From a virus, in the IMG/VR virus record IMGVR_UViG_3300037247_000638, positions 1 to 48,729 of that record: a DNA stretch of 48,729 nt; one strand, written 5' to 3'. The translations under genes and the position numbers were made by a program. Shown in pieces: positions 128 to 48,729 of this stretch. Below the pieces are notes generated by a model, which was given only the letters and a program-made list of their open reading frames with translations, made no database searches and was not told the DNA's origin. Numbering within the stretch: the first letter of the stretch is position 1; every line of letters begins with the position of its first letter.

Positions 128-320
128 ACACATCGAAAACGCGCATCAACAAGCTAGTAGTTGTTTCCCTAGTTAGACCCTTATTTACTATTATTGTGCG
201 GTAGCCAGTGACTTTGGTGCGCAGCTCTGCAAGCCTAGCTGGATAGCCGCGCCCCTCTGGAATATCACGGCTACCGTAGGTTAATGAGTCGCCCAGGCAC
301 AGGATTATGTCACGAAGCAT
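1..320 (-). CDS. SGNH/GDSL-family hydrolase, N-terminal part (gene crosses the circular join)
   Basis: The minus-strand frame opens with ATG at 318-320, runs off the left edge, and continues in the same frame from 48602 down to 48377, giving a 181-residue protein. It shows the SGNH blocks: LCLGDSLTYG with nucleophile Ser12, a Gly in NKGL near residue 48, LIGSND with Asn81, and DGVHLTPDGY with Asp161 and His164. Family members are esterases or lipases, often sugar-O-acetyl esterases. Beside glycosyltransferase genes, trimming or deacylating a glycan is a reasonable inference. The start follows the TGA of the upstream membrane peptide at 323. No signal peptide is evident, so it is probably cytoplasmic. 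Confidence 0.9.
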   Translation of the reverse strand, partial: MLRDIILCLGDSLTYGSRDIPEGRGYPARLAELRTKVTGYRTIIVNKGLTRETTTSLLMRVFDVCRSYPESHLCLLLIGSNDMKSKYISWKIFEENIRHIMWAAQV

Positions 321-322
321 CT

Positions 323-481
323 TCACATTCCCTGGATTACAGCATAAAAGAGAAGTGGGGTTAGCACCCAAAGTGCGAACAAAAGTAACCCAGCAATTAC
401 ATCATCTGTTGTCTTTCCGGTGGTTGACCCAAGAATACCTCCAAATAAGATACAACACACAAACCACGCTATCCACAACAT
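323..481 (-). CDS. Small single- or double-pass membrane protein (52 aa)
   Basis: The frame is 52 codons, with an AGGAGG site seven bases before the ATG. It encodes an N-terminal hydrophobic stretch (LWIAWFVCCILFGGILG), a short polar turn (STTGKTTDD) and a second hydrophobic stretch (VIAGLLLFALWVLTPLLFYAV). This suggests a helical hairpin in the inner membrane. Its start overlaps the end of the GT2 gene and its stop lies two bases before the SGNH hydrolase start, so the three genes are translationally linked. A role as a membrane anchor or small holin-like protein is possible. No family is recognised. Confidence 0.75.
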   Translation of the reverse strand: MLWIAWFVCCILFGGILGSTTGKTTDDVIAGLLLFALWVLTPLLFYAVIQGM

Positions 482-1215
482 AACAACCTCCTATATCGTT
501 CATTATCCCATCCATCGGGATAAAGGGGGTACTTCACTCCCCATTTTTCTTTGAATATCTTCTGAGATGCCCCGATAGCATCCCTAAGATCTTCCCCAAA
601 ACTAGCGGACCGTATGTGACGTACCAAAGCATCTGCAACAATAGTCTTGAGCCCCGCCTTCCAAACACGCAACGAATAGTCTTCATCTTCTCCTCCATAT
701 CCTGTGAACCTCTCATCCAGCATCCCCACTTTCTTTATTACTGTTCTGGGCACCAAACAACAGTACATGTTAATCGCTTGTCTGGTAGTTAACACGGGAG
801 GTCCGGCATCCAGTAGTCCAACCTTCCAGCAATCCCTATTATGGCAACCTCCTCGCTGAACTCTGGCAGTCACGATGCCGGGACCCCATTCGCGCAGCGC
901 ATCATACATAGAACCTATCCACCCCTCTCCTACTATCACATCATCATTCATAATGATGTAGTACTCAGTATTAACCTCTCTGAGCACCCTATTAATACGC
1001 CCTGCAAAGTTAAAAGGCCCCATAGTATAGAACACGCGCCCCAACTTAATCAACTCATCCACATCGTACTCACATTCTAATCCCACCACAAACGCAAAAC
1101 GGGGGTCAATGGTATGCTCTTTGACTGAAGCGATGCACTCCCTGGCATGCTCTCCAAAAACAGGCATTATAAGCAGTGGATTTATTTTATGGGTACTTGG
1201 GTACTCATTCGTCAT
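469..1215 (-). CDS. Family 2 glycosyltransferase (GT-A fold)
   Basis: This 248-residue protein has the GT2 layout. There is an N-terminal beta-strand nucleotide-binding region (LLIMPVFGEHAR), the DxD-like metal site MNDDV at about 90-93, and the acceptor/catalytic segment DERFTGYGGEDEDYSLR near 170-185, whose acidic pair is typical of GT2 enzymes. It would transfer a sugar from a nucleotide-sugar donor in the cytoplasm. Its length is normal for a minimal GT2 domain and no membrane segment is present. The start is set by GTAGGAGGCGTTTAA before the ATG. It lies at the early-gene end of the circular modification cluster, upstream of the SGNH hydrolase. Confidence 0.88.
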   Translation of the reverse strand: MTNEYPSTHKINPLLIMPVFGEHARECIASVKEHTIDPRFAFVVGLECEYDVDELIKLGRVFYTMGPFNFAGRINRVLREVNTEYYIIMNDDVIVGEGWIGSMYDALREWGPGIVTARVQRGGCHNRDCWKVGLLDAGPPVLTTRQAINMYCCLVPRTVIKKVGMLDERFTGYGGEDEDYSLRVWKAGLKTIVADALVRHIRSASFGEDLRDAIGASQKIFKEKWGVKYPLYPDGWDNERYRRLLCCG

Positions 1216-7331: not shown

Positions 7332-7332
7332 A

Positions 7333-14972: not shown

Positions 14973-15108
14973 TTTTGAGCAATGGAACCTCTCGGACTTG
15001 GCGTCCTTCAAGAAGGCCGATCTTATCAGATTGATAAATAGCTTGGTCGATGATATGAGGGACACAGACAAAGAAAGATGCTATAGGAGATGCCCCTTCA
15101 GAAGATGA
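14938..15108 (+). CDS. Hypothetical microprotein (56 aa), GTG start
   Basis: GTG 14938 is directly preceded by GGAGGAAAC, a strong site. The protein (ETISVYIDDFEQWNLSDLASFKKADLIRLINSLVDDMRDTDKERCYRRCPFRR) is helical with a Cys/Arg-rich end. The stop overlaps the acetyltransferase ATG at 15105. Not recognised. Confidence 0.6.
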   Translation: MKRETISVYIDDFEQWNLSDLASFKKADLIRLINSLVDDMRDTDKERCYRRCPFRR

Positions 15109-15536
15109 TAAGACTGATAAAGTACAACGAGAGTCTAAGAAGTAGGTTCGAGTACCTGGTAGAATCAGCGGACCGCGATTACTTCACTCCTGAGCGTGTG
15201 CTACAGGAGGAGTGGGATATAGATGAGATTGGTAAGGGGTGCTGGATTCTAGTAGAAGTTAACGATCATATCGTACGTTATTGCATGGGATTTGTTGCCT
15301 GGGATGATTGGGGTGAGATATATAAGATATATGTGGAGCCCTATTACCGTAAGAAGGGCTATGGCAGACTACTTATTCATGCTGCCTTGAGTGAGATAAA
15401 GCACCGATGCACCATGTGGGTAGATGTGGGGAATTCAGGTATGCTGGGCCTGTTGTTCCAAGAAGGATTCTATATTGAAGAAATCAGCGAAGAGGAGATG
15501 GGGCACCAATGGCTAAGGCTCGTAAAAAGGTTATAA
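15105..15536 (+). CDS. GNAT-family N-acetyltransferase
   Basis: The protein is 143 residues from ATG 15105; ATG 15090 would add five residues. Motif A is clear: IYKIYVEPYYRKKGYGRLLIHAAL around residues 74-97, with the R/Q-x-x-G-x-G/A acetyl-CoA loop seen as RKKGYG. The later WVDVGNSGMLGLLFQEGFYIEE matches motif B with its GF turn. It would acetylate an amine on a small molecule, peptide or protein. The substrate is unknown; host-protein modification is typical for early phage GNATs. It overlaps the next gene by 28 bases. Confidence 0.85.
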   Translation: MIRLIKYNESLRSRFEYLVESADRDYFTPERVLQEEWDIDEIGKGCWILVEVNDHIVRYCMGFVAWDDWGEIYKIYVEPYYRKKGYGRLLIHAALSEIKHRCTMWVDVGNSGMLGLLFQEGFYIEEISEEEMGHQWLRLVKRL

Positions 15537-21544: not shown

Positions 21545-22507
21545 ATGGGTGATAAAGACACCTCAAAAAATGTATATGATAGTGGCGCGTATTCCCGAGC
21601 AGAATCAATTCGGGAAGACCTCGCTGATTTCATTACGCAGCTAATCCCTAAGATTACTGTCAAACTCTCACTGTTTGGTCGTGGGCCGATGCCCACTCAA
21701 CCCAAGCATGAGTACCAGACGGATACTCTTCCCGCAGCGTCAGTAAGTACTGTTGTAGATGGTGCGGATTGGGGAGCAGCGACGAAAACGGATAGAACCA
21801 GAATATACAACAACACTCAGATCTTTAAGACTGTGGTCCAGGTAGACGGCACGCAACAGCAGGCTGTCAAGGCTGGTCTCGATTCCGAGATTGCCTACCA
21901 GGTAAACCAGGGGAATAAGATTCACGCCCGTTCCATTGAGAAACAGCTTCTCGATGGTGCGAGAGCAGATGGTGACACCACCACTGCCAGGACGATGGGT
22001 GGACTTCGAGGCGGGAGTGATGCAACTGCTGCCGCAGCCGCGCCAGGTCTTGTGACCAATGACACGGATGTTTCGGGGTCATTCGGAGAGGACAACTTGC
22101 TTGATCTTTGGGAGAGCATTTCAAGGGTCAGTTTTGGCGACCCATCCCATATCCTTGTTAATTCAGGGCTAAAGAGGATCATCAGCAAGTTCGCGATATA
22201 CATCGACACCTCTAACAACAGTGCCTTCTCAGAGCGTATGCTCGAAGGCAAGAAGCGCACCATTGTTGTAGACGAGTATGAGTGTGACTTTGGGCGCACC
22301 AGAGTCGTTTACGACAGGTTCGTTGATCGTAGTGAGCTTTACCTGCTCGATATATCCACATTCAGAACATCGTGGTATCGAGGCACTAAGATCGTAGAGG
22401 CACCGAAGCTTGGTGATTATATTAAGCGCATAATCCTGAGTGAGCTGACGGTCGAAATTCGTGCAGAATCCCATTCCGGGAGGCTGTACGGAATCACAAA
22501 CTACTAG
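21545..22507 (+). CDS. Major capsid protein, DUF5309/SU10 type
   Basis: The 320-residue protein follows the scaffold by six bases. It has the features of SU10-like HK97-fold capsid proteins: an early SLFGRGPMPTQPKHEYQTDTLP segment, WGAATKTDRTRIYNNTQIFKTVVQVDGTQQQA (E-loop), and VNQGNKIHARSIEKQLLDGA leading into the P-domain. An Ala/Gly-rich loop (TAAAAAPG) sits in the middle, and the C-terminal beta strands end RLYGITNY. It forms the icosahedral shell. Confidence 0.88.
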   Translation: MGDKDTSKNVYDSGAYSRAESIREDLADFITQLIPKITVKLSLFGRGPMPTQPKHEYQTDTLPAASVSTVVDGADWGAATKTDRTRIYNNTQIFKTVVQVDGTQQQAVKAGLDSEIAYQVNQGNKIHARSIEKQLLDGARADGDTTTARTMGGLRGGSDATAAAAAPGLVTNDTDVSGSFGEDNLLDLWESISRVSFGDPSHILVNSGLKRIISKFAIYIDTSNNSAFSERMLEGKKRTIVVDEYECDFGRTRVVYDRFVDRSELYLLDISTFRTSWYRGTKIVEAPKLGDYIKRIILSELTVEIRAESHSGRLYGITNY

Positions 22508-22554: not shown

Positions 22555-22875
22555 ATGATTTACCTGACGAAACCAAAATCAAAATCATGGGATGACATTA
22601 TAAGGGAGTTGCCGCCCCACGAATTAAAAGAGTGCATTATGGCCGCCACGGATGCCAAGGAGCAACGTAGGGATGCCAACGAGTATGGACATGGCTTTAG
22701 CGAGAGTCGCAACTTTATGAATGTTGGAGTAATACCCTCTCTTTTATATATGAGATATACAGAGTTGGAGACAGAGAAGGGGCGTGAAGAGTTCTATAGA
22801 GATTGCCCTGTATTCAGGACGCGTGATGTGGGGGGATTAGGAAATAGAATTACGGTGCCCCGAGACATAAAATGA
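22555..22875 (+). CDS. Hypothetical phage protein after capsid (106 aa)
   Basis: Charged protein (KSWDDIIRELPPHELKECIMAATDAKEQRRDANEYGHGFSESRNFMNVGVIPSLLYMRYTELE) with a conserved-looking FSESRNFMNVGVIP motif common in phage hypothetical proteins. It overlaps the glycosyltransferase by four bases. Possibly a head-associated protein. Confidence 0.7.
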   Translation: MIYLTKPKSKSWDDIIRELPPHELKECIMAATDAKEQRRDANEYGHGFSESRNFMNVGVIPSLLYMRYTELETEKGREEFYRDCPVFRTRDVGGLGNRITVPRDIK

Positions 22876-37274: not shown

Positions 37275-37381
37275 TATGGGAGAGGTACTATGATGTCGCG
37301 GATTGGGTGTTGGGCATTCTACTTGCTGTTGGTATTGTGCTTATGTCTCACTGTATTGTGCGGGTACTTCATAAAGACTAG
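37259..37381 (+). CDS. Small membrane protein (40 aa)
   Basis: A 40-codon frame starting inside the XhlA-like gene end: SVSLIWERYYDVADWVLGILLAVGIVLMSHCIVRVLHKD, one transmembrane helix with basic end, a holin-like or spanin-like design. An overlapping hydrophobic frame upstream of the lipoprotein start (from 37290) is treated as a shadow. Confidence 0.5.
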   Translation: MSVSLIWERYYDVADWVLGILLAVGIVLMSHCIVRVLHKD

Positions 37382-37385
37382 ACAT

Positions 37386-37676
37386 ATGAGATGCTTCAAC
37401 CTACTGATACTCCTGAGCCTACTTTGTTGTAGCTGCGCCCCTATATACTATCATGTGCAAGTGAAAGACCAAGCTGGAGCAGTCATAGAGGAATGGTCGT
37501 TTGAAACCAGGGGCATAGGGGCGGGGGATATTGTTTATGATGTAACGCAGGAATGGGATGCGGAGGGCAACGAACTCAAGCGACACATCAGATTTGAGCG
37601 GCGCATCATGGAAGGCATCTCTAACGTGGCTGGTATGTTGTCTGATATGATAGGGGCAGCCAGCAACAAACTATAA
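37386..37676 (+). CDS. Small lipoprotein, possible outer-membrane spanin
   Basis: ATG 37386 gives a 96-residue protein: MRCFNLLILLSLLCCSCAP is a signal peptide with lipobox-like Cys cluster. The mature part (YYHVQVKDQAGAVIEEWSFETRGIGAGDIVYDV, then RIMEGISNVAGMLSDMIGAASNKL) is compact. With the two membrane peptides upstream it could form a lysis cassette, which would imply a diderm host. No endolysin accompanies it. Confidence 0.58.
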   Translation: MRCFNLLILLSLLCCSCAPIYYHVQVKDQAGAVIEEWSFETRGIGAGDIVYDVTQEWDAEGNELKRHIRFERRIMEGISNVAGMLSDMIGAASNKL

Positions 37677-37682
37677 TTCTCC

Positions 37683-37711
37683 TTGACAAGCACTATGAGA
37701 TATAGTATAAT
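37683..37711 (+). promoter_or_regulatory. Perfect-consensus sigma70 promoter
   Basis: TTGACA (37683-37688), exactly 17 bases, TATAAT (37706-37711), followed about 28 bases on by the phosphoesterase start with CTGGGAGGTTTCT. Both hexamers match consensus fully, so expression by host RNA polymerase independent of the virion operon is expected. Confidence 0.85.
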
Positions 37712-37738
37712 GGAGTGTAATTAAACTGGGAGGTTTCT

Positions 37739-38521
37739 ATGGATGAAGGGCCAAAACTGCGGAAGGTGGTAGCATCAGGTGACTACCATATACCAGATAA
37801 TATCCCATTAGATGGGTTTTATGGATTTCTAAAGAAAGTTTGCCCTACCACGTTTCTTCTGGGGGGCGATTTTATTGATGCTGGGGCATGGTTCGGATGG
37901 AATAAGAAGAAGGTAATAGATGTTGCCTCTGGAGAATGGAAGGACAACCTAGCACGACAACAGACGGAATTTGATGAAGGTAACAAAATACTAGACGAGT
38001 TCGATAAATCGCTTTCGGGGGAATGTGAGAAAGTCTTTTTGACAGGTAACCATGAAATTAGGTTAATCAAACTCTACAGGCGGGCACCATCAGAGAAAGC
38101 ACACCTAGATTTTGTAGAGAAGTTACGATTAAAGGAACGTGGTTACAAAACCATTGGATGGAATAAGCACTGTGCCGTGGGATACTGTAGATATATTCAT
38201 GGAGAATATCACCCAAAACACCATGCCCTGAGACATGTAATGGCAACACTCAGACCTGTGAGATATTTCCATCTCCACACGCACCAAGCACATACAATAG
38301 TAAGTTCGTTGGACAGCAGGACTATAGATGGAGAGTGTATGGCATGTATGTGTCATCTTAATCCCGAGTGGTTGCAAGACAAATCTAATGCCTGGAGGAA
38401 TGGGTTTGAATATAATGTTGTCGAACATACAGGGCAGTTCTTTAGTCATTTTGTGCCGATAAATCAGAACCGTTTTTATTGGGGTACCAATGGGAACGGG
38501 GAACCAATTTGCTATAAATAG
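37739..38521 (+). CDS. Calcineurin-like metallophosphoesterase
   Basis: 260 residues with the family's metal blocks in order: SGDYHIPD (Asp15, His17), LGGDFIDAG, LTGNHEIR, YIHGEYHP and HLHTHQAH. These bind two divalent metals and cleave a phosphoester. The substrate is not evident; nucleotides, nucleic acid ends or a phosphorylated host molecule are possible. It has its own strong promoter. Confidence 0.88.
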   Translation: MDEGPKLRKVVASGDYHIPDNIPLDGFYGFLKKVCPTTFLLGGDFIDAGAWFGWNKKKVIDVASGEWKDNLARQQTEFDEGNKILDEFDKSLSGECEKVFLTGNHEIRLIKLYRRAPSEKAHLDFVEKLRLKERGYKTIGWNKHCAVGYCRYIHGEYHPKHHALRHVMATLRPVRYFHLHTHQAHTIVSSLDSRTIDGECMACMCHLNPEWLQDKSNAWRNGFEYNVVEHTGQFFSHFVPINQNRFYWGTNGNGEPICYK

Positions 38522-38536
38522 AAAAGGAGAAGAATA

Positions 38537-38713
38537 ATGTGGAAGCCTCTAACTTGGCCTAAGAAAATCAGGGAAGCGAAATTTTGGTACAGAGTGTACA
38601 AAGGTATCAAGAGTGAGTACGATGACATCCCAGAAGAATACACCGACAGACTCGAAGACGAACTCAAAAAGCAAATCAAAAAAGCAATCAAGAGATACCA
38701 AGAGAAGGATTAA
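38537..38713 (+). CDS. Hypothetical basic protein (58 aa)
   Basis: A 58-codon frame with AAAAGGAGAAGAATA before ATG 38537. It begins WKPLTWPKKIREAKFWYRVYKG and ends in a basic helix (DELKKQIKKAIKRYQEKD). It overlaps a second frame by up to 92 bases (38622-38951). Confidence 0.6.
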   Translation: MWKPLTWPKKIREAKFWYRVYKGIKSEYDDIPEEYTDRLEDELKKQIKKAIKRYQEKD

Positions 38714-38951
38714 CGACTCACTCGACGAAGAACGAGTCCCTGTAGGATTTGATCTGTATGAGATACAGGTAGTTCTGCGCGACTTGAAACGAATATCATC
38801 CAAAGGGCATTGTGAACTGTGCAAGGCAGCATACCTAGACTTAATAGATATACTTATGGTAGAGCTGCCCGAAGTGGTGAAGTACCAGTTACTTGATGCC
38901 CTGCATGGCAAACTAGGGAAGGGAAAAAGAAAATGTGGAAAGTCCTCTTAA
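38622..38951 (+). CDS. Hypothetical protein with CELC motif; start uncertain
   Basis: The C-terminal half (VGFDLYEIQVVLRDLKRISSKGHCELCKAAYLDLIDILMVELPEVVKYQLLDALHGKL) reads like a folded helical protein. The first about 30 residues (SQKNTPTDSKTNSKSKSKKQ) overlap the 58-aa gene in another frame and may not be translated. True start could be downstream, or the two frames could join by frameshift. Confidence 0.55.
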   Translation: MTSQKNTPTDSKTNSKSKSKKQSRDTKRRINDSLDEERVPVGFDLYEIQVVLRDLKRISSKGHCELCKAAYLDLIDILMVELPEVVKYQLLDALHGKLGKGKRKCGKSS

Positions 38952-39187
38952 AGTATGGTTCCAACATTCTGTTGGGAATAGACCAGTTCGGGAATGTGCT
39001 GCTGGGCGGCGACCCCGATGAATCAATTAGTTCTAGGATAGGAAAGTTGAAGCGGCGACATGGTGGCGTCATTCCTTGGTATAGACCCTTCTCTGGGTTT
39101 ACTGACTTTCTACTCGACAAGATACAGAAAGACCACAGCACGAAGGCAATAGAAAATGACGAAGGGGATGATGCTATTCTTCACTAA
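38933..39187 (+). CDS. Conserved phage protein (84 aa), last gene of rightward unit
   Basis: Contains YGSNILLGIDQFGNVLLGGDPDESISSRIGKLKRRHG then YRPFSGFTDFLLDKIQKDHSTKAIENDEGDD, a pattern often seen among phage hypothetical proteins near lysis or late genes. It overlaps the previous gene, and its last 14 bases overlap the opposing YopX-family gene. Confidence 0.75.
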   Translation: MWKVLLKYGSNILLGIDQFGNVLLGGDPDESISSRIGKLKRRHGGVIPWYRPFSGFTDFLLDKIQKDHSTKAIENDEGDDAILH

Positions 39188-39608
39188 GAAGCTCTGGGTT
39201 CTCGTAGATGTTGCCGATAACTTCGACCTCCCTACCGTTCCAGATATTGTGCGTAGCCTCTTTCTGGGGGTTCTCGATATTCTTGGCGAGGATATACGAC
39301 ATCACGCTGTCTCCTTCGCAGGGTCCGCACTCGCCCTGATTAAGGTAGACAAAACGGGGACCCCACCACCAAGAGGGGTCCATTAGGATGGACCCATCGT
39401 ATATCTCAACTTCATTCTTGTCTTTGAGGCCAGTGTATTGGATGAAGTCCAAGTTAACTGTTAAGACCGCTTCTGTTATTTTCTTCAATACCCCATCGTC
39501 ATAATACCTCACAAGAGTAAATGGTGTTTGCACTGCTCTGGTAAGAGACATTACCTCTACCATTTGCCCATTGACTCTATCCCACGCCCTGAATTTAATC
39601 TCTTTCAT
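39174..39608 (-). CDS. YopX-family phage protein
   Basis: 144 residues from ATG 39608, which follows AGAGGAGGTTGTTCA. Typical YopX signature: MKEIKFRAWDRVNGQMVEV at the start, FIQYTGLKDKNEVEIYDGSIL in the middle and EVIGNIYENPELL at the end. Widely distributed in phages; molecular function unknown. It is the last gene of the long minus-strand unit. Confidence 0.9.
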   Translation of the reverse strand: MKEIKFRAWDRVNGQMVEVMSLTRAVQTPFTLVRYYDDGVLKKITEAVLTVNLDFIQYTGLKDKNEVEIYDGSILMDPSWWWGPRFVYLNQGECGPCEGDSVMSYILAKNIENPQKEATHNIWNGREVEVIGNIYENPELLSEE

Positions 39609-40888
39609 TGAACAACCTCCTCTGGTTTCCTTGGACAATGCTCCTCTAAGAACTCTATAAGGCTGGTGCGCTCGCGCATCAGTTCTTCATTGCTGATGCT
39701 GTCGAGTTCCATTACCAGTCCGCTCTGCTGATCGTAGCCAACAACAAAATAATCATCATAATTCCTATGCAGAATCCTAAACCCGAATCTACTAGGATTT
39801 CGCCAAGCTGGACTCCCAACCACCGGAATAAAAGTGCTAACCACCCAATCATCAGGAATGGTTTCCACCATGAATTGTTTAGTTGCTTCAATGGTCTCAT
39901 AGGTCTCTCCTGGGTTGCCAATCATTATACTTACCCTACATTTGATTCCTGCTGCCCCAATGTAGGTTATCGCCTGTCTGTTCTGTTCTACGGTGATGCC
40001 TTTTTTGATGTTGCGTAGAATCGTATCGCTTCCACTCTCTATCCCCACACATAGAGAATAGCACCCGGAATCTTTCATGTATCCTAATAGTTCTGGGTCT
40101 ATGCAATCTGCTCTCGTCCATCCTCTCCAGATCACGTTCCTCCTGGCCAGTCCTTCGCATATCTCTAACATCCTTTCCCTATTGGCAGTAAGTGTATCGT
40201 CTAAGAATAGTATCCTATCGATGCCCGTCTTGTCCCGTATATCATCTATCTCTTGTAAGACATACTCTGACGAATGAAAGCGTAGCTTGCCGACCCAAAT
40301 GTCTTGGTCACAGAAGATGCACTCGCCGGGGCATCCCCTACTGGTAATCATATTGGTTGCAGGTTTTCCGGCAATTGTTCGAGTATATCGACTGAAGTCC
40401 AGTAATTCTCGTGCAGGGAAAGGGATGGTATCTAAATCCTTGATTTGGTCACATCTCATCAAGGATGGAGGGTCATAGATACCATAATCGGCGTTGCCTT
40501 GGATTATCAAGGACCAGGCCTGTTCGCCCTCTCCCTGCACGGCTATGTCTGCGTGGGTCAGTTTTAATGTCTCTCCAGGTAAGGTTGTTGGGTGCGGCCC
40601 CCCTACGATAAGAGGGGTATTGGGGTTGTTCGCCTTTAGTGCCCTACAGACCCCCTCAGCTAGCCCTATCTGCGTAGAAGCGATAGATACACCAAACAGG
40701 TCAGCTTTCTCGTTAGAGAGCCTTACAAGGCAACTCAGGGGGCTAGAATCGTCCATATTGGCTAGGTCTATGACTTTGACGTTAACTCTCCTTGATGATG
40801 CCGCGAGATACAGGAGCCCCAATGGGGGTGCAATTTTGGAATCCGTCATCGTTGGGTTCGGAAGACTAATCAGTGTTATGTTTTTCAC
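39605..40888 (-). CDS. Radical SAM enzyme with B12-binding-type N-terminal domain
   Basis: 427 residues. The N-terminal Rossmann part (IAPPLGLLYLAASSRR, VGGPHPTTLPGETL at about 95-108, VQGEGEQAW) resembles cobalamin-binding domains of BchE/HpnJ-like enzymes but lacks an obvious DxHxxG, so B12 may not be bound through His. The cluster motif CPGECIFC places Cys186, Cys190 and Cys193 on a [4Fe-4S]; GIESGSD and NPGET follow. Such enzymes methylate unactivated carbons or rearrange substrates. Overlaps neighbours by four bases. Confidence 0.88.
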   Translation of the reverse strand: MKNITLISLPNPTMTDSKIAPPLGLLYLAASSRRVNVKVIDLANMDDSSPLSCLVRLSNEKADLFGVSIASTQIGLAEGVCRALKANNPNTPLIVGGPHPTTLPGETLKLTHADIAVQGEGEQAWSLIIQGNADYGIYDPPSLMRCDQIKDLDTIPFPARELLDFSRYTRTIAGKPATNMITSRGCPGECIFCDQDIWVGKLRFHSSEYVLQEIDDIRDKTGIDRILFLDDTLTANRERMLEICEGLARRNVIWRGWTRADCIDPELLGYMKDSGCYSLCVGIESGSDTILRNIKKGITVEQNRQAITYIGAAGIKCRVSIMIGNPGETYETIEATKQFMVETIPDDWVVSTFIPVVGSPAWRNPSRFGFRILHRNYDDYFVVGYDQQSGLVMELDSISNEELMRERTSLIEFLEEHCPRKPEEVVQ

Positions 40889-42663
40889 ATCACTGCCCTC
40901 TCGAATCTATCTATATGCGCCTTCCAGGTAAGCGACTTCGCCATCGCCAATCCACCCTCTGCTAGTCTCTGGCGTAGTCGCCTATTCTTTATCGCGAATA
41001 TCAGATTGTCGGCTAGTGCCTTGACATCGCTTGGCTCTGATACTAGGGCTGTCTGTCCGTTCTTGGCATAGAACCTGTTGCCCAGAGTGTCTGTGGTTAC
41101 GAGGGCGCATCCACAAGCCATGGCCTCAAGTGGCGGCATCCCTATACCCTCTTTCTCTGCTGCATTGAGCCATATGTCGCACTGAGAGTAGATTTCCTTC
41201 ACCCTATCAGGAGAGATACCAGAATGGGCATCAAATTCAAGAAGATTAATCCAGGGATATTCCTCTTTAGCTTTCTGAAATGCCCGGAGGGCATCGTCAA
41301 CATGAGTTGATGGGATGTTGTTGGTGTAGGTCCCCACAGTTATGTCATCCTTTCGGGGCACCCTTATCCTATGCACTCTGGTCAAATCTAATCCAGTATA
41401 GAGACATGTCTGCCTTGTATCTAATTCCTGTCCTAACCCATTACAGTAGTCGCGCATCCAATCGGTTGTGCATATCTTGATGTAGTCTCTGTTGAGGATG
41501 TTCTGCTTTACCCAACTGGCCTTTCGTGCCCTCACTGAGAGTACGAGGAGATAGTGGTTCCCATCTTTTTTGGCTATTTCTCGGACAACCTTGGGCTCAC
41601 AACACTCATAGACTACCCACCTATCTGCTTCTAGGTTACGCCAATCGTAACTTATGGGCACCTTATTATCAAACCAATCAGGAGTGCCTTGACGCTCTGA
41701 TGCCAGCACAACCTTATGTCCTCTCTCCTGTAGCATATTGGAGATTTTTAGAATGCGCCTGACTCCCCCGTTGAGGGGGAATCCGGGCGTCAAAAAGGCA
41801 ATGTCAAATTTAGATGCTTCCTGCTTTCCCCTCAAATGTGGTTGCAGCTTTTTGGGCTTTGGCGATGTCCTTCCAAACCATTTCTTGACAAACATTTCTC
41901 GACATATTTTATTGTCTCGGGCATATCCAGGGAATACGTTGGGAATGGTTTGATTCCTCATGTGATGAATGAGCGGTATATTGTAGGCATCCATGCTGAC
42001 CATTATCGTAGGGAGATGGTTGCGATGACTGAACTGATAGGAAATATCCGCATCGTCACAAGAACAGAAATATTGGGAATCAAATCTGATGCCCAGTCTT
42101 CTCGCCACATCCCCACGATAAAGCAATAGAAATCCGTTAAGATAATCTACTTCGACATATCTAAAGGATATTTTTTGGTTATATCCCACTACGCCATCGC
42201 CATTCCAATTTGACCAATCTTCAAAGTCATAGCCCCTGTCTCTTAGTATAACTCCCCCAGCGATCCCAATGCAACCAATCTCTCTTCCTATCTCTTTCTC
42301 TACTTCAATGAAGGTGCGTATCAATACGTCGATGCTGCCCTGTTTGAACATACAGTCGTTCTGCGTTACGAGCACCCATTGACCTCGCGCAATATCTTGA
42401 GCTTGTGCTGCTGTATCAGAGAATCCTTTTCGATCCTTTTTTGTGACTATCGTCATAGGATATGGGGGTTTGTATGACTGCAACATCTTCTGTGTTCCAT
42501 CGGATGAGCAATCATCTGAGACTATTACTTCTGCGCCTTCTGGCAAGCATGGACTTATGTGGTCTAACCAGTCTTTAGTCAAATCCTTCCTGTTATATGA
42601 AGTGCATATGACGCTCACAAATGGGCGACCCTTCCAATGTGTAACTATCTTATCGGTAGGCAT
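40885..42663 (-). CDS. Two-domain glycosyltransferase (GT2-GT4 fusion)
   Basis: 592 residues from ATG 42663 (TTG 42693 adds ten). Residues 10-265 form a GT2 domain: FVSVICTSYNRKD, SDDCSSDGTQ, QNDCMF (metal site) and CSCDDADISYQF. From about 285 a GT-B/GT4 domain follows: FLTPGFPLNGGVRRILK, GTYTNNIPSTHVDDALRAF, and the donor motif EKEGIGMPPLEAMACGCALVTTD. Two transfers could be made in sequence on one acceptor. Confidence 0.9.
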   Translation of the reverse strand: MPTDKIVTHWKGRPFVSVICTSYNRKDLTKDWLDHISPCLPEGAEVIVSDDCSSDGTQKMLQSYKPPYPMTIVTKKDRKGFSDTAAQAQDIARGQWVLVTQNDCMFKQGSIDVLIRTFIEVEKEIGREIGCIGIAGGVILRDRGYDFEDWSNWNGDGVVGYNQKISFRYVEVDYLNGFLLLYRGDVARRLGIRFDSQYFCSCDDADISYQFSHRNHLPTIMVSMDAYNIPLIHHMRNQTIPNVFPGYARDNKICREMFVKKWFGRTSPKPKKLQPHLRGKQEASKFDIAFLTPGFPLNGGVRRILKISNMLQERGHKVVLASERQGTPDWFDNKVPISYDWRNLEADRWVVYECCEPKVVREIAKKDGNHYLLVLSVRARKASWVKQNILNRDYIKICTTDWMRDYCNGLGQELDTRQTCLYTGLDLTRVHRIRVPRKDDITVGTYTNNIPSTHVDDALRAFQKAKEEYPWINLLEFDAHSGISPDRVKEIYSQCDIWLNAAEKEGIGMPPLEAMACGCALVTTDTLGNRFYAKNGQTALVSEPSDVKALADNLIFAIKNRRLRQRLAEGGLAMAKSLTWKAHIDRFERAVM

Positions 42664-43390
42664 CTCTATCAAGCACCGGGGGGTAGAAGTCAATTTCAGG
42701 CCAGTTACGTTGCCTGTTCTCTGGATGGAAATATATTTGGTCTGAACTGGGCATCTTATTCTTATCCTTGCGCCATTTTTTTAACCAGTATTCACAGTCT
42801 ACCCTGAATTGGGCGACCTTTTCATTGGTATCTCTGTATTGGTTGCCGCCTCCACGCTTCTCTAAGTTGCGCCCAGAGAACGACTCTCGACTGAACGGAA
42901 TTCCAGCCTCTTCAAAACGTAGGTACATATCAAGATCTTCCGACCCCCCGCTAACCATCCTCTCATCAAACCACCCCAATTTGCGTATGGTATCTGCTCG
43001 GAATACGCTGAAGTTCAGGTGCCCTATCAGGTGGAGGCCCTTCTCGGCATCCTCATCAGCAGCCTCTAACCATCCCGGTTTTGCTATTGTATCAGGAGCA
43101 ATGATGCCACACCATTCTTTCTCATCTAACAGCGTAAGACGTGTAGCTTGGTTCCAATTCCTGGCCTGTGATTGATTTAGGACATTATTCTTGAAGCGAA
43201 GTTTAGGATAAAAAATGCTCTGATATAGATCGTGGGGAGGAACCCATCCAGGATGATTGTTTATTATAGACAAGGAGGGCATGATTGGCTTAGTGAGAGA
43301 TTGCACAAATGCCCCAACGCATTTCTTAACCATCTCAATAGGCTCATCATACACAAACATAAAGAACGATAACGATTCACTTGGTTTCAT
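42650..43390 (-). CDS. Family 2-like glycosyltransferase
   Basis: 246 residues. ESLSFFMFVYDEPIEMVKKC at the start and SIINNHPGWVPPHD give the nucleotide-binding strand region; CGIIAPDTIAKPGW takes the DxD-site place in altered form. WFDERMVSGGSEDLDMYLRFEEAG has the acidic catalytic pair. The metal site is unusual, so activity is less sure than for its neighbours. Overlaps both. Confidence 0.75.
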   Translation of the reverse strand: MKPSESLSFFMFVYDEPIEMVKKCVGAFVQSLTKPIMPSLSIINNHPGWVPPHDLYQSIFYPKLRFKNNVLNQSQARNWNQATRLTLLDEKEWCGIIAPDTIAKPGWLEAADEDAEKGLHLIGHLNFSVFRADTIRKLGWFDERMVSGGSEDLDMYLRFEEAGIPFSRESFSGRNLEKRGGGNQYRDTNEKVAQFRVDCEYWLKKWRKDKNKMPSSDQIYFHPENRQRNWPEIDFYPPVLDRDAYR

Positions 43391-44322
43391 AGGGTTGCCT
43401 CCATTGCGTTAACTACATGGTCCCAAGTATAGGCCATGATTTCGTTTCTTGCTTCGTCTGCTAGTTCTTCTCTAATTCCCTTATTCTCCAGCAAAAATCT
43501 GATTGCCTCTGCTATCTCCTCTGCATTCTCAGCCAGCAATGCTGTTTGCTCTTGAAAGGCAAAATCATCTGTTCCAATATCAGAGCATATCACGGGCGTA
43601 CCACATGCCATCGCCTCAGCAGCTACGTTATTCCATCCCGCGCTTCTCTCCACTGCGATTACTATGGTGGATTCACAGTATGCCTTGACGAGATGCTTCT
43701 GCTCCAGTTGGTAGTATTTCTCGTTGTCATGTGGGCAACGCAACCTTATCCGTTCCTTCATAGAGAATGGTGTAGCCAATAGGGGTATCTTTTCAGCAGC
43801 CATTTCGATGCCCCGAACAACCGCCCCAGTACACTTATACTCAGACCACTTCCCATTGAACATAATCTGTGGGGGGTCTAGGCGTTCGCAATCCAATGGC
43901 TTGAATAGGTCTGGATTGATGCCCCCTATCCACCCCACTGCCTTTCTGCCGTGCTTACGCATATTCTCAATTTGGCGCGACGAATTGGCAGCAACTATAT
44001 CAGCAACAGACAAGGATAGTTCATCCACATCGTCGCTCACAGAATAGTACACTCTCTTCCGTGCGGGCATCCGATAGAAAGGTCGGAAGCACCCTTCACT
44101 GGCAATAACATAGTCGAATTCGCCGATACGTTTATCTGTCACCCATGCGGTGCTAAGTATTTCAAAGTTCACCTCCATCCATCCCTTTAATGGGCGTGTG
44201 CTGGCATCCCTATTGAATAACTTATACTCATGCCCTCTACGAGTGAGTTCATTCCCTATTTCAAGATAACGTCTGGTGCCTCCGTGGACTCCGGGCGTCT
44301 GTATTACTGCTGCTATTCTCAT
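43387..44322 (-). CDS. GT4-family glycosyltransferase (GT-B fold)
   Basis: 311 residues. Acceptor half: IQTPGVHGGTRRYLEIGNELTRRGHEYKLF. Donor half: MFNGKWSEYKCTGAVVRGIEMA, then VERSAGWNNVAAEAMACGTPVICSDIGTDDF (the conserved E-x7-E of GT4), with helical end. Typical short GT4, cytoplasmic, ATGA-coupled to neighbours. Confidence 0.9.
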   Translation of the reverse strand: MRIAAVIQTPGVHGGTRRYLEIGNELTRRGHEYKLFNRDASTRPLKGWMEVNFEILSTAWVTDKRIGEFDYVIASEGCFRPFYRMPARKRVYYSVSDDVDELSLSVADIVAANSSRQIENMRKHGRKAVGWIGGINPDLFKPLDCERLDPPQIMFNGKWSEYKCTGAVVRGIEMAAEKIPLLATPFSMKERIRLRCPHDNEKYYQLEQKHLVKAYCESTIVIAVERSAGWNNVAAEAMACGTPVICSDIGTDDFAFQEQTALLAENAEEIAEAIRFLLENKGIREELADEARNEIMAYTWDHVVNAMEATL

Positions 44323-44969
44323 TTATGCACCTCAACGACAATAAGAACTTCATGCCCATCGCAGCCAAAACCATCACTCCACCTAACTATTTCATCATCT
44401 GGGAAAACATATAAGAATAAGTCATACATGGCACTAGCATCCCATACATGACGATGCAGCCACCCATTTGCCAACTGTCTTTCCTTGTCCTTTTCTCTCG
44501 CTCGATGTTCTTCCCCTTCTTGCTTAGACAGTACTAATTTGCACCACTCCTCCCAATGTTCATCTTCACTCGTATCAACACCTGTCATAAAATCTGCTAT
44601 GAGATGTTGCAAAGATGTTATGGGACGGTCTACATCATAGGTATAACGCTTATCTGGTATAAGGGCGAAGAGGGTGCCTCCATCCTTCAACACACGCTTA
44701 CATTCCAACAATCCAAGAATGGGGTCAGGCACATGCTCCAGCACATCACGGAAGGCAACCCAACCAAATGTATTGTCATTGAAATCGTTAAGGTCGCCCA
44801 TGCGATTTATGCTGTGCGCCAATATGGGATTGCCATTCCAGCTTGTGTCAATCGGGTCAGCATATACGACATTACCAGTCGTAATCGGGTCAGGTCCCGG
44901 CCCTATTTCGAGTCCCAGTTCTGTCTTTGACAGGTACTTCTCCACTGCCTGTTTTGTTTTATTGTCCAT
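44319..44969 (-). CDS. Class I SAM-dependent methyltransferase
   Basis: 216 residues. Motif I is LEIGPGPDP (20-28), followed by VYADPID and FRDVLEHVPDPILGLLECKRVLKDGG, characteristic of small-molecule or sugar methyltransferases of the DVLEH type, often found in glycan clusters. It probably methylates a sugar of the glycan made by neighbours. Overlaps neighbours by a few bases. Confidence 0.88.
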   Translation of the reverse strand: MDNKTKQAVEKYLSKTELGLEIGPGPDPITTGNVVYADPIDTSWNGNPILAHSINRMGDLNDFNDNTFGWVAFRDVLEHVPDPILGLLECKRVLKDGGTLFALIPDKRYTYDVDRPITSLQHLIADFMTGVDTSEDEHWEEWCKLVLSKQEGEEHRAREKDKERQLANGWLHRHVWDASAMYDLFLYVFPDDEIVRWSDGFGCDGHEVLIVVEVHK

Positions 44970-45597
44970 AACCCACCAGTTTGATTACCTTGAAGGTGAC
45001 ATAGAGAGAATTTGCTATTTGCTGTCGAGTTGCCTTGCACCCAATAAAGGGTTCTATATATTCATCTAGTACGAACTTGTAATAACTCTCCCGCTTGTTC
45101 CATATCTCACAAGCAAATACATGTGTGTCATTGTGGATGTCTTCGTCCATTAGAAAGAAAGCTGTAACATTCAGAATAGGATAGTGTACCAGTATATCTC
45201 CGTTGTCATGGGCCACTATATCGCCGTCGGCAGTGATGAGATAATTTAGTTCCCATCTATCAAAGGTATTTAGCACTAAATCCAACAGGGCTAGTCGCTG
45301 AAGAGCCCTTGAAGATACAGGGCACTTCCCTAACTGACGCCCCTCCACAAATCTTTGGAGCGAACCCACATGCCCTTCGTGGTGGACTATAACTGTCTCT
45401 GGCACCATTTCAAAACCAAAGAACTTATCTATCCTATAAGCCAATTCCTCACGACGAAAACACATCAATGCTTCATGGGCGGGATTTGCTGTGTGCTTCC
45501 AGATCGCAGGGGTATCGTCTTCCAGGAAAACAAGGTCGGTATTCCACATGTCTCTTTCCTTGTACGTCTCAACGATTCTCTTTATGGGAGCTAACAT
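44959..45597 (-). CDS. PI3/PI4-kinase-like (SCO1664/HipA-related) protein
   Basis: 212 residues. IWKHT (Lys34) would bind ATP phosphate; LAYRIDKFFGFEMVPETVI, GSLQRFVEG follow. The catalytic loop is LNTFDRWELNYL (Asp113, Asn118) and the metal motif is VAHDNGD (Asp131). This matches bacterial PI3/4-kinase-like families related to HipA. The target could be a protein, a sugar or a lipid. Its placement between two methyltransferases in a glycan cluster is unusual. Confidence 0.7.
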   Translation of the reverse strand: MLAPIKRIVETYKERDMWNTDLVFLEDDTPAIWKHTANPAHEALMCFRREELAYRIDKFFGFEMVPETVIVHHEGHVGSLQRFVEGRQLGKCPVSSRALQRLALLDLVLNTFDRWELNYLITADGDIVAHDNGDILVHYPILNVTAFFLMDEDIHNDTHVFACEIWNKRESYYKFVLDEYIEPFIGCKATRQQIANSLYVTFKVIKLVGYGQ

Positions 45598-46214
45598 CTC
45601 ACCACCACCATGTTTCTGCTTGGTCTGCCCGGACTGGGCAATATGTGAATATCGCTATGCTCAGGACGATACTCCTCTATGAGTTCCAAATCATCGTGAG
45701 TACATTCAAATATTACGGTCCCTACGGGGAGTTTGAATAGCTTGTCGAGTGCCTTTATTCTGTAATCCTTGCCTGGAATCTTGTTTCTCAGGTCAGGCCA
45801 TTTTTCCCTGAAATGGTGCATCACATTGAACATCGTTACTGTCCATTTTTCTGTTTTAGGTCCTTGGGGAATATCGGCATCAAGCCAACTAGCATTAAGG
45901 ATGGAATATCCATGTGCTTCGTTAAAGTCTAGGACTAAGCGAATCGCTTCTGCCTTGTGTGGAGAAATTTCAATAGCAACTACCCAATCTGCTTTTCCTT
46001 CTCTCAATAACTTATCTGCCATGAAACCACAACAGGCCCCCACATTGAGTACCCACTTATTCTTGAAATCCACAAGGCGTTTAGCTGCTTCCCATGTTTG
46101 CCTAGTAGGTGCCTCGCCTTCCTTGTGGAAGTCTCCGAGGTCTAAGGGAGTATAGTCCAACTCTATCAGCCCGGCAACCTTCTGCAACTCTGCCATTATC
46201 TCTTTTACGTTCAT
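45591..46214 (-). CDS. Class I SAM-dependent methyltransferase
   Basis: 207 residues from ATG 46214, with AAGGTGAAATA upstream. Motif I is VLNVGACCGFMAD (55-67), then VVAIEISPHKAEAI, LDADIPQ and TVTMFNVMHHFREKW. It resembles methyltransferases acting on glycans or small molecules. Coupled to the kinase-like gene. Confidence 0.85.
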   Translation of the reverse strand: MNVKEIMAELQKVAGLIELDYTPLDLGDFHKEGEAPTRQTWEAAKRLVDFKNKWVLNVGACCGFMADKLLREGKADWVVAIEISPHKAEAIRLVLDFNEAHGYSILNASWLDADIPQGPKTEKWTVTMFNVMHHFREKWPDLRNKIPGKDYRIKALDKLFKLPVGTVIFECTHDDLELIEEYRPEHSDIHILPSPGRPSRNMVVVRC

Positions 46215-46227
46215 TATTTCACCTTGT

Positions 46228-47268
46228 TCATAAAAAATGTACATGAGCTGGGGTTTCTTTGAGCTTTTCCAGCATTTCGTTGATGCCGTCGCAGCGACAT
46301 AGTGGGGGGCAGTCTTCTGCCATATTGAGATTTTTCAATACCTCCTGTCTACGCTTCCCATTCCATATGTCATAGAATGCTTCTTTGTAGATGTTGCCCA
46401 GAACAGCACCCTTTACTCCGCGCATCAAACAACACAGAACCACATCTCCTGTTGCTGTGACTACGCCACAGAACTGCTGCCCGTGGCAGAAAGAGTATTT
46501 TCTATCGAGATCATGCCTTGCTAGTTTATCAAACTTGACCGCGCTCTGGGTAATGAGATACTTATTTGTCCCATGGTCTATGCGCCTCCGAAAGATTTTC
46601 CGGTATGCCTCAATGTCTATTCCATCAGGGCCATCAAACCAAGGAGCAAGGTAGACTGGTCTGAACTGGAGATAATCCACTCCAAGTACCCTACCACGAG
46701 CCATTACATCTTCCATCCCATTGATGGAGAAATTGTCTACAAGATACCCTATTCCAACAGTGCAAGATGATCCTGTGTCTTTCTTGGCGTCAACCAGTCG
46801 TGTGATAGTATCGCAAACTCTATTGAATTCTCCTTGCGTACCATTGTGTGTTATCTTATACATCTCGGGAGTTCCGGCATCAAGACTCACTCTCACCCAC
46901 TTGCAGCATTCTATCACGGTCTTAGCCAGAAGACAAGACATTTTTAATCCATTAGTAATGAGGGCAGTGTCATATCCAAGGGCGTCTGCCTCAGTTATCA
47001 TAACCCCTAAAGCCGGATTTAATGTAGGTTCCCCGCCACCAGTAAATATGATTGCCTCAGTCTCTTCAACGAGTTCATCCATCAGAGTCTCGAACATAGA
47101 GAGTTCGAGCATCCCCTTATGTTCTCCTCCTACGCATCTAGGGCAGGCACCATTACATGCCCCAGAAGGGTCTACTTCCATTACTATGGGATAAGGGTTG
47201 CCTCCACTCTGCCATTCCGCAATCTGGGCACCATGCCATAGTATCTTGTTCTCTGTAAATATCTTCAT
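46228..47268 (-). CDS. Radical SAM enzyme with SPASM-type C-terminal cluster
   Basis: 346 residues. CNGACPRC gives Cys38, Cys42 and Cys45 for the radical SAM [4Fe-4S]; FTGGGEPTLNP (75-85) contacts SAM. The C-terminal part has YSFCHGQQFCGVVTATGDVVLCCLMRG and EDCPPLCRCDGI, the Cys-rich SPASM/twitch region holding auxiliary Fe-S clusters. Such enzymes mature peptides (RiPPs), modify sulfatases or dehydrogenate alcohols. A Cys-rich 67-aa gene lies just upstream. Confidence 0.9.
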   Translation of the reverse strand: MKIFTENKILWHGAQIAEWQSGGNPYPIVMEVDPSGACNGACPRCVGGEHKGMLELSMFETLMDELVEETEAIIFTGGGEPTLNPALGVMITEADALGYDTALITNGLKMSCLLAKTVIECCKWVRVSLDAGTPEMYKITHNGTQGEFNRVCDTITRLVDAKKDTGSSCTVGIGYLVDNFSINGMEDVMARGRVLGVDYLQFRPVYLAPWFDGPDGIDIEAYRKIFRRRIDHGTNKYLITQSAVKFDKLARHDLDRKYSFCHGQQFCGVVTATGDVVLCCLMRGVKGAVLGNIYKEAFYDIWNGKRRQEVLKNLNMAEDCPPLCRCDGINEMLEKLKETPAHVHFL

Positions 47269-47278
47269 ACCTTTTCCT

Positions 47279-47482
47279 TTATCTTAACAATTCCCTGAAA
47301 AATTTTCTTATACATCCAACAGAAACAAAATCTGGACAATCAAAGTTTTTGTTTTTTTCTTCAGGATTGGCATAATGTCTCCACTCACCCCTGTAATCAG
47401 TCGTCACCTTATATTCAGCCCAACATGAACTGCCCCTATCCCAACCAGAATAATATTTGCAAAAAAAGCAACCAATTTTCAT
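47279..47482 (-). CDS. Cys-rich 67-aa protein next to SPASM radical SAM enzyme
   Basis: ATG 47482 follows AGGGGAGAAGAT. CFFCKYYSGWDRGSSCWAE at residues 5-23 and DCPDFVSVGCIRKFF near 49-63 give five Cys. This may be a small zinc protein of the C-x2-C...C...CPDF type. Given the neighbour, a peptide substrate (RiPP-like precursor) must be considered. Overlaps the methyltransferase upstream. Confidence 0.65.
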   Translation of the reverse strand: MKIGCFFCKYYSGWDRGSSCWAEYKVTTDYRGEWRHYANPEEKNKNFDCPDFVSVGCIRKFFRELLR

Positions 47483-48183
47483 ATCTTCTCCCCTATTACG
47501 ATGCACCATTCACTGTCTATATGATATTCAGAGAAGTCTATGCCGCCATAGACATTCTTTACGCGCAGACCAGCCTTTTTGAACATCCCAGTTATTTCTG
47601 CCAGTGTATAGAATCGAATGGATTGAGTTACCTTCTTGCCGCTAGGCCAGTAGACTATTTCTGTTTCCATGCGCGAGGTCAGAAGGTTGAAGTTGCGCTT
47701 GGTAAGTTCTGTATGGTCGGCGTAGGAATCCCATTGGTTCTCCACGAAGTTCCGCATCAGCCACTCTCTATTGCGGAGGTGGATGAGAAACTTACTTTTT
47801 ATCGCTGCTGCGGCATGATCTAATACTTTTTGATTATCCAGATCATTGAAGTATCCGAAGGATGTAAAAAAACAATAAGCATGGTCCATATTAAGAAGAT
47901 AAAAGGTCCTCATATCTTCAATATCAAAATGACCAGCTCCTTTCTTGGCTTCTTCTATATATAAAGGATTGTTGTCTATGCCATAAGCCGTGATGCCTCG
48001 TTTCCATAATTCATTCACATGCCTCCCATATCCACAGGCTATGTCCAGCACCTTATCTTCTATCTTAAGTCCCAATGCCTTTATCAGGAAGGTGACTTCA
48101 TCTCTGGTCTGTTTCCCCTCCTGTCTGGGGCGATACTTGAGCAGATATTCTTCCGTGAAGTAATCTCCAGTCCAGTCTTTCAT
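47479..48183 (-). CDS. Class I SAM-dependent methyltransferase
   Basis: 234 residues from ATG 48183, with GGGGATACC upstream; the long frame to 48294 is rejected. KVLDIACGYGRHVNELWKRG (44-63), YGIDNNPLYIEEAKK, and FTSFGYFNDLDNQKVLDHAA are typical of the FTSFGYF-type methyltransferases seen with nucleotide-sugar or small-molecule pathways. Third methyltransferase of the cluster. Confidence 0.88.
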   Translation of the reverse strand: MKDWTGDYFTEEYLLKYRPRQEGKQTRDEVTFLIKALGLKIEDKVLDIACGYGRHVNELWKRGITAYGIDNNPLYIEEAKKGAGHFDIEDMRTFYLLNMDHAYCFFTSFGYFNDLDNQKVLDHAAAAIKSKFLIHLRNREWLMRNFVENQWDSYADHTELTKRNFNLLTSRMETEIVYWPSGKKVTQSIRFYTLAEITGMFKKAGLRVKNVYGGIDFSEYHIDSEWCIVIGEKI

Positions 48184-48380
48184 GGTATCCCCAGTAGCCC
48201 TTTCGCTGTTTCCTTGTGTTTTTCCAATGCACCAACATATTCTTCGATCATATCCATCTTTTTCTCCATCCGATCCCGGAAATGCGGGCAGCAATCAGTG
48301 ATATATATATCATACGAGAATTGATCTACAATATCCTCTAATTCATGTTCCCACTCTCGTCTTTCTTCTTTTATAGTCAT
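48180..48380 (-). CDS. Hypothetical helical protein (66 aa)
   Basis: ATG 48380, preceded by GCGAGGCGAT, overlaps the SGNH hydrolase stop. TIKEERREWEHELEDIVDQF then DCCPHFRDRMEKKMDMIEEYVGALEKH, helical with a CCPH element. Frame extending to 48458 is rejected. Function unknown. Confidence 0.65.
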   Translation of the reverse strand: MTIKEERREWEHELEDIVDQFSYDIYITDCCPHFRDRMEKKMDMIEEYVGALEKHKETAKGLLGIP

Positions 48381-48729
48381 ATCGCCTCGCACCACCTTTC
48401 TGCCATCAATGCGTAACCGTCTGGGGTTAAATGCACCCCATCTACCAAGTACTCCCACATATCATCAAACTCTACTGTCTGAGTAGGCATCTCTCTGATA
48501 ATCTTATTTGCTGTTCTGATGCTGTCGATTACATCGACAGGAAAACAGGTCATCATGTGGGAATCTATCGGCGGCAGTGTCCCCATAATCACCCTCTTCC
48601 CTGTGACTTGGGCAGCCCACATGATATGCCGTATGTTCTCTTCAAATATCTTCCAACTGATATACTTGCTCTTCATGTCGTTGCTGCCTATGAGGAGTAA
48701 ACAGAGGTGCGACTCAGGATATGAACGGC
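48377..48729 (-). CDS. SGNH/GDSL-family hydrolase, C-terminal part (continues at 1-320)
   Basis: This is the remainder of the gene that crosses the join; only 48377-48602 is unique, and 48603-48729 repeats bases 1-127. It encodes the Asn-block end, a helical region, and VDGVHLTPDGYALMAERW carrying the catalytic Asp161 and His164 of the 181-residue protein. The stop overlaps the next gene's ATG. See the N-terminal entry for function. Confidence 0.9.
   Translation of the reverse strand, partial: RSYPESHLCLLLIGSNDMKSKYISWKIFEENIRHIMWAAQVTGKRVIMGTLPPIDSHMMTCFPVDVIDSIRTANKIIREMPTQTVEFDDMWEYLVDGVHLTPDGYALMAERWCEAI
48603..48729. repeat. Terminal overlap (circular-contig join), right copy
   Basis: Exact copy of bases 1-127. 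When merged, the SGNH hydrolase reading frame runs uninterrupted from 320 through 1/48602 to 48377, which validates the circle. Confidence 0.93.

Follow-up and report, generated by a model that had tools for sequence, protein, structure and literature searches.

A leftward glycosyltransferase, methyltransferase and radical SAM gene cluster in a podovirus-like phage genome as a candidate pathway for tailoring virion glycans

The glycosylation of phage virions by phage-encoded glycosyltransferases (GTs) is already known. In the mycobacteriophages Che8 and Rita such enzymes glycosylate the virion or capsid (Freeman et al. 2023, as cited in PMC11256854), and a further precedent exists for capsid glycosylation (PMC12619734). 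Other phage GTs are found in the O-antigen or lipopolysaccharide (LPS) islands of cyanophages and pelagimyophages (PMC7029224) and in the O-antigen conversion (gtr) systems, which combine a membrane flippase with a bactoprenol or polytopic GT. Here we describe a cluster of GT, methyltransferase, radical S-adenosylmethionine (SAM) and hydrolase genes in IMG/VR record IMGVR_UViG_3300037247_000638, a complete phage genome of 48,729 bases analysed at its full length and hereafter called the window. We propose, with about an even chance of being right, that the cluster encodes a soluble pathway which builds and tailors a short glycan, most likely on virion proteins.

The genome begins and ends with the same 127 bases, and because of this direct terminal repeat the join of the two ends of the record is taken as real. 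The cluster runs leftward from ~ 39.6 kb through the join to 1.2 kb; in the order of transcription it begins with the GT2 gene at 1215-469, crosses the join within an SGNH hydrolase gene and ends with the B12-binding radical SAM gene at 39605. Scanning of the window proteins with Pfam, PHROGs and NCBIfam gave the following features.

469..1215, minus strand: GT2 glycosyltransferase, first cluster gene in transcription order (PF00535 2.4e-6; phrog_2456 1.8e-9)
128..320, minus strand: SGNH/GDSL hydrolase, N-terminal part, joined with 48377..48729 over the join
48377..48729, minus strand: SGNH/GDSL hydrolase, C-terminal part (joined open reading frame (ORF) of 181 residues, PF13472 8.9e-13)
47479..48294, minus strand: SAM-dependent methyltransferase (PF13649 3.5e-9), likely start near 48183
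47279..47509, minus strand: small cysteine-rich ORF of 76 residues between the SPASM gene and the last methyltransferase gene, recognised as an ORF only
46228..47268, minus strand: radical SAM / SPASM enzyme (PF04055 3.6e-10, PF13186 7.2e-10; CNGACPRC at residue 38)
45591..46244, minus strand: possible methyltransferase, weak (PF13649 0.0028 and NCBIfam 2.2e-5, both below cut-off)
44959..45597, minus strand: TIGR03843-like (kinase-like) protein of unconfirmed function (TIGR03843 8.6e-8, below cut-off)
44319..44969, minus strand: SAM-dependent methyltransferase (PF08241 1.1e-7)
43387..44322, minus strand: GT4-type glycosyltransferase (PF13524 1.6e-13, PF13692 1.4e-12)
42650..43390, minus strand: GT2-like protein (no Pfam match; iterated GT2 profile; GSED motif)
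40885..42693, minus strand: GT2-GT4 fusion glycosyltransferase (PF00535 8.7e-12, PF00534 2.1e-19), likely start at an internal ATG near 42663
39605..40888, minus strand: B12-binding radical SAM enzyme, last cluster gene (PF04055 1.7e-21, PF02310 1.1e-18; CxxxCxxC at residue 186)

An earlier sequence-only reading had named most of these enzymes, and the family scans agree with it for the GT2-GT4 fusion, the GT4, two methyltransferases, both radical SAM enzymes, the SGNH hydrolase and the further GT2 beyond the join (469-1215). Its third methyltransferase (45591-46244) is weak, and 42650-43390 is recognised as a GT2 solely through an iterated profile seeded by another GT2 of the window. Its PI3/4 kinase is unconfirmed. 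Indeed, 44959-45597 scores 31.8 bits against TIGR03843 (SCO1664, kinase-like), below the curated cut-off of 172.4; searches of viral contigs and of 193 Omnitrophota genomes yielded no relatives, and the single-sequence structure prediction failed with a predicted local distance difference test (pLDDT) score of 39, so that no fold is claimed for it. The suggestion of a possibly phosphorylated glycan depends on this unconfirmed kinase call. The start of the cluster at 39174 was likewise misplaced, as 39174-39638 encodes a YopX phage protein (PF09643 1.5e-19) and not a glycan gene. As for the coupling of the genes by ATGA, true 4-bp overlaps occur at three junctions, while other overlaps measure 7-11 bp and the 76-residue ORF is interposed; the true starts are likely internal for 40885-42693, 45591-46244 and 47479-48294.

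No transmembrane segment was detected in any cluster protein by a hydropathy scan, and neither a flippase nor a membrane-bound priming or bactoprenol transferase occurs among the family matches of the window cluster. No nucleotide-sugar gene was recognised in the window, hence the donor sugars would be host-supplied. Scans of the cluster for promoters and terminators showed no excess over shuffled sequence. The cluster resembles the O-antigen/LPS islands of cyanophages and pelagimyophages (PMC7029224) in having several GTs, and in some of those islands radical SAM genes, in one region; however, those islands hold nucleotide-sugar genes, as in SynMITS9220M01, whereas the window has none and no membrane component. 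It also lacks the flippase and the bactoprenol or polytopic GT of the gtr systems and gave no gtr family match. With the mycobacteriophage type (as cited in PMC11256854) the window shares phage-encoded GTs and a putative capsid glycan, and it has one GT gene directly behind the capsid region; compared with that type it would add, as read from its genes, two radical SAM enzymes, methyltransferases and an SGNH hydrolase.

The 46228-47268 protein combines a radical SAM core with a SPASM cysteine domain, PF04055 and PF13186 both scoring above cut-off and the cysteines being conserved. Since the GT2-GT4 fusion, the capsid protein and the kinase-like protein, each used by itself as a query against viral contigs, returned no matches, alignment queries were needed, and by this means SPASM relatives were found in 439 viral contigs. 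In the best 76 distinct viral loci, counting as near any gene within four genes, a GT is near the SPASM gene at 52, and 69 of the 537 near genes encode GTs, compared with 12 of the 720 far ones (Fisher 6e-16, here and below a descriptive value only). A Pfam scan of the neighbours showed GT2, GT4-type and methyltransferase domains to be the commonest, with fewer GTs among the far genes. Furthermore, a SPASM and GT cassette lies directly behind the capsid gene in three capsid backgrounds, namely contig L077, MW202801.1 and the L070 group. Among solved structures the SPASM profile scored highest against DesII, and next against an archaeal lipid enzyme and cytosylglucuronate decarboxylase, although the DesII alignment covers part of the chain only (~ residues 27-231). 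The substrates of DesII and cytosylglucuronate decarboxylase are nucleotide sugars.

The closest cellular relatives of the SPASM enzyme belong mainly to Omnitrophota, Elusimicrobiota and DPANN archaea (30 loci, 23-36% identity); many of these loci are GT-rich and 12 have a B12 radical SAM gene nearby. The small Omnitrophota and Elusimicrobiota genomes behind loci L175-L195 contain 5-28 B12-type radical SAM genes each, in several cases beside GTs and a SPASM gene, so the proximity of both families in Omnitrophota gives modest support. From these relatives, a host of the phage in Omnitrophota, Elusimicrobiota or DPANN archaea is possible.

Two further arrangements were observed among the SPASM-bearing viral contigs. 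In L070:9019-11236, L052:1105-2614 and L009:9439-11657 the SPASM gene adjoins a pair of genes that resembles the two halves of a thiamine pyrophosphate-dependent (transketolase/E1-type) enzyme; in L070 the N-terminal half of phrog_34187 is matched by one member of the pair and the C-terminal half by the other. The trio recurs in many of these contigs and in L070 stands directly behind the capsid gene. In L015:399-5092 (IMGVR_UViG_3300035698_011651) three ORFs are each present in two copies of opposite orientation, with the SPASM match duplicated on opposite strands, which represents either a large inverted duplication or an assembly artefact.

The second radical SAM enzyme, 39605-40888, has the class B layout of a B12-binding domain and a radical SAM core with CxxxCxxC, and relatives are present in at least 358 viral contigs. 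Within 80 viral loci, near again meaning within four genes, a GT is near the B12 radical SAM gene in 53 and a SPASM gene in 13, and GTs make up 86 of 584 near genes compared with 38 of 735 far genes (Fisher 4e-9). Viral contig L019 carries a B12 radical SAM, a GT4, a SPASM and a GT2 gene in one row, and relatives of the methyltransferase 44319-44969 adjoin B12 radical SAM genes in L227 and L265. The closest viral relatives of the window enzyme are those of L205 and L206, each at ~ 38% identity. The L205 contig has terminase and portal genes and, further on, a capsid gene and a small gene, after which follow GT9-like, methyltransferase-like, B12 radical SAM, GT2, GT9-like and methyltransferase-like genes, the GT2 and capsid having been tested and the GT9 and methyltransferase labels read from the sequences. 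In L206 a GT2 gene and an SGNH gene, the latter 26% identical to that of the window, lie within ~ 5 kb. A tree of 94 sequences puts the window enzyme in a pair with that of L206 (support 98) inside a virus-only part, which suggests membership of a virus-specific clade; this is put no more strongly because the cellular sampling comprised the neighbours of SPASM genes.

A structural model of the B12 enzyme built from 22 sequences reached a pLDDT of 88. Its closest solved structure is AprD4 (Z 33.6, 394 residues, root-mean-square deviation 2.9), a radical SAM 1,2-diol dehydratase whose substrate is the aminoglycoside paromamine, and the next is the methylase MgmA (Z 30.9). AprD4 works without cobalamin, as does deoxygenation of its type, whereas C-methylation requires this cofactor. 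The window enzyme shares with AprD4 and the cobalamin-dependent radical SAM enzymes a full-length fold and the CxxxCxxC motif, but differs from AprD4 in its 22% identity, its phage context and in that no AprD3-type partner reductase was seen. Judged from these remote relatives, sugar tailoring would be the leading substrate class for both radical SAM enzymes.

We then consider the region behind the capsid gene, in which a GT was overlooked by the sequence-only reading, as was an acetyltransferase gene further upstream.

21545..22507, plus strand: major capsid protein, landmark (phrog_1328 1.2e-51; 30-31% identity to PaP3 and Manatee Spring phages)
22555..22875, plus strand: small post-capsid gene, 106 residues, in position and size as PaP3 ORF8, MW202496 and MW202711
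22872..23588, plus strand: GT2 glycosyltransferase (PF00535 2.6e-23), between the small post-capsid gene and the next structural gene
15090..15536, plus strand: GNAT acetyltransferase near or before the terminase gene, possible accessory (PF00583 2.1e-13)

The GT2 at 22872-23588, which also gave a weak GtrB-like match, occupies a position that is used repeatedly. A capsid-alignment scan of the viral contigs gave 69 loci of the PaP3-type capsid lineage in which 1.6 kb or more follows the capsid gene, and in 17 of these, the window included, a GT is found at +1 to +4. Across the fetched viral loci, positions +1 to +3 comprise 209 genes, of which 14 encode GTs, as against 1 among the 587 genes elsewhere (Fisher 6e-8). 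The slot GTs mostly belong to an Anp1-like GT-A family of ~ 205-245 residues, with Pfam matches from 7e-11 to none and a membership widened by an iterated profile; the window thus has an ordinary GT2 where its relatives use another GT. The slot of L104 additionally holds a GT11 enzyme (7e-24). In the deposited annotation of MW202496 and MW202711, both from Manatee Spring, the order is scaffold, capsid, hypothetical small gene and glycosyltransferase; in MW202711 the gene for tail tubular protein A comes next. Moreover, the cultured Microcystis phage Mel-JY34 (PP438425.1) encodes directly behind its putative capsid gene a relative of the slot GT (32% identity) annotated as hypothetical, and this makes the virion assignment directly testable.

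Radical SAM and GT cassettes directly behind the capsid gene were observed in four phages or phage groups of different capsid types: L077 (PaP3-type capsid), MW202801.1, the L070 group (phrog_283 capsid) and the L205 contig. The cassette of MW202801.1 reads, in the deposited names, SPASM, GT, PhyH, methyltransferase, NodB-like and GT, and its capsid is counted as a separate type because it has no detectable homology to that of the window.

The gene content and motifs of the cluster, its lack of membrane proteins and the recurrent linkage of its enzyme classes to one another and to capsid genes in other phages are direct observations. In the pathway that we propose, a short glycan would be assembled from host nucleotide sugars by the GTs, one of them encoded inside the capsid operon. 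The methyltransferases would place methyl groups on O or N atoms of the sugars, both radical SAM enzymes would alter sugar carbons by deoxygenation, epimerisation, oxidation or C-methylation, and the SGNH hydrolase, possibly with the GNAT protein, would adjust acyl groups. We infer the virion as acceptor, as well as the order of the steps and the individual substrates, and favour the virion because the linkage to capsid genes recurs. Several points weigh against this proposal. The cluster is a separate leftward operon on the early-gene strand and not beside the window capsid gene, a location which would also fit early action on the host. The SPASM family occurs too in cellular polysaccharide-type loci of Omnitrophota and Elusimicrobiota and is therefore not virion-specific, and high-ranking structural or profile matches include the non-sugar enzymes MgmA, TsrM and SkfB, so that the substrate class is not fixed. 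The neighbourhood loci are related to each other and not independent, which is why the Fisher values are descriptive, and in all these phages the glycoprotein is a prediction from genes.

That early-strand location, apart from the late genes, is one of the reasons to keep a host-directed role in view, in which the cluster would remodel the surface polysaccharide or LPS during infection, its GTs and methyltransferases capping or altering the host glycan so as to exclude superinfecting phages or to keep progeny from re-adsorbing. The other is that pelagimyophage GTs have been assigned to O-chain modification in a region that also has radical SAM cassettes (PMC7029224). SPASM relatives do sit in cellular GT-rich loci, and contig L019 adds cytidylyltransferase, aldo/keto reductase, sulfotransferase-like and GT9 genes to its row. 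We nevertheless consider this role less likely, if still a serious contender: the window cluster has no flippase, membrane priming or bactoprenol transferase, nucleotide-sugar gene or transmembrane segment, an argument that soluble GTs of LPS-core type would evade, and related cassettes and single GTs stand repeatedly directly behind capsid genes.

A collection of individually mobile genes from polysaccharide loci, sharing an operon by chance and making no single product, would agree with the exact gene set being unique to the window and with families that are individually common in viruses. It appears improbable, since the cluster genes overlap, the enzyme classes are co-located far above background in other contigs, and the B12 enzyme falls in the virus-only part of the tree, so that its gene was not recently captured from the sampled cells. 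Lower still we would place the glycosylation of hypermodified phage DNA bases, with radical SAM and methyltransferase tailoring, as a shield against restriction. GT chemistry of this kind is known in phages, 43387-44322 barely passes the GT4-conflict family PF20706 (26.5 vs 26 bits), and a TET-associated GT (PF20691, 3.5e-46 and 1.0e-36) occurs in the SPASM-bearing viral contigs L026 and L027 (records G011 and G012). Tet_JBP had no match in the window or in 33 other records, L026 and L027 included, and the control gave no match either. A base hydroxymethylase of the thymidylate-synthase type (PF00303, ThyA) is absent from the window while the controls were positive, which disfavours this explanation, and no DNA polymerase or nucleotide-metabolism gene was recognised in the window.

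The sequence-only reading had presented the cluster as a candidate new system and had proposed a search of the whole set for co-occurrence, in which individually common cargo genes lacking a conserved neighbourhood would count as refutation. For gene classes the outcome favours that reading: both radical SAM families are recurrently beside GTs in viruses, in several cases directly behind the capsid gene, and the enzyme classes are co-located elsewhere; the exact set was seen only in the window. When nine cluster proteins were joined into one query, no phage record had a clear match to more than one of them, hence the exact set is not conserved in cultured or annotated phages. With a set seen once, families as common as those in 439 and at least 358 viral contigs, and virion glycosylation already described for mycobacteriophages (as cited in PMC11256854), the term new system is too strong, and that same precedent was overlooked in the remark that no need of the phage for this chemistry is known. 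That the genes form a pathway to a methylated glycan, carried by the virion or by the surface of the host, is still the most sensible reading, and it is supported in part, at the level of gene classes.

On the basis of its genes, the genome as a whole belongs to a distant, podovirus-like relative of PaP3/LUZ24. Genes for a terminase, a portal, a capsid and an internal virion protein were recognised, and the order terminase, portal, small, scaffold, capsid and small gene matches PaP3; the capsid shares 30% identity with that of Pseudomonas phage PaP3 and 31% with that of a Manatee Spring phage, and because of the former value the phage is placed outside the genus. Early genes lie with the cluster on the minus strand and late genes on the plus strand. 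The early region contains, on the minus strand, a recombination pair of a Rad52-type annealing protein and a Cas4/PD-(D/E)XK-type exonuclease at 5647-6390 and 6669-7493. A sigma-70 promoter of perfect consensus (TTGACA, 17 nt, TATAAT; 12/12) lies at 37683-37711 on the plus strand, just upstream of 37739-38521, which encodes a metallophosphoesterase-like protein where the late region ends. A late-region protein of 1118 residues (33751-37107, plus strand) is 22.7% identical over 362 residues to a 1121-residue protein of MW202801.1, which also carries a SPASM gene. In L005 (MW202497.1), whose terminase is 30% identical to that of the window, two glycosyltransferases and a GroEL-like gene lie between terminase and portal (35151-39470).

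Beyond this genome, we tentatively suggest, as a conjecture that leans towards doubt, that there is a widespread class of phages whose particles carry glycans with sugars altered by radical SAM enzymes through deoxygenation, epimerisation or C-methylation, with the cassettes placed directly behind the major capsid gene in many unrelated capsid lineages; the window would have one GT in the slot and the rest in a separate operon. The capsid-gene slot and the radical SAM tailoring seem not to have been described, neither having been found in a limited search of the open-access literature. Virion glycosylation has so far been known from few phages. If the suggestion is true, it would be common among environmental phages and rich in its chemistry, with a bearing on adsorption, particle stability and immune recognition.

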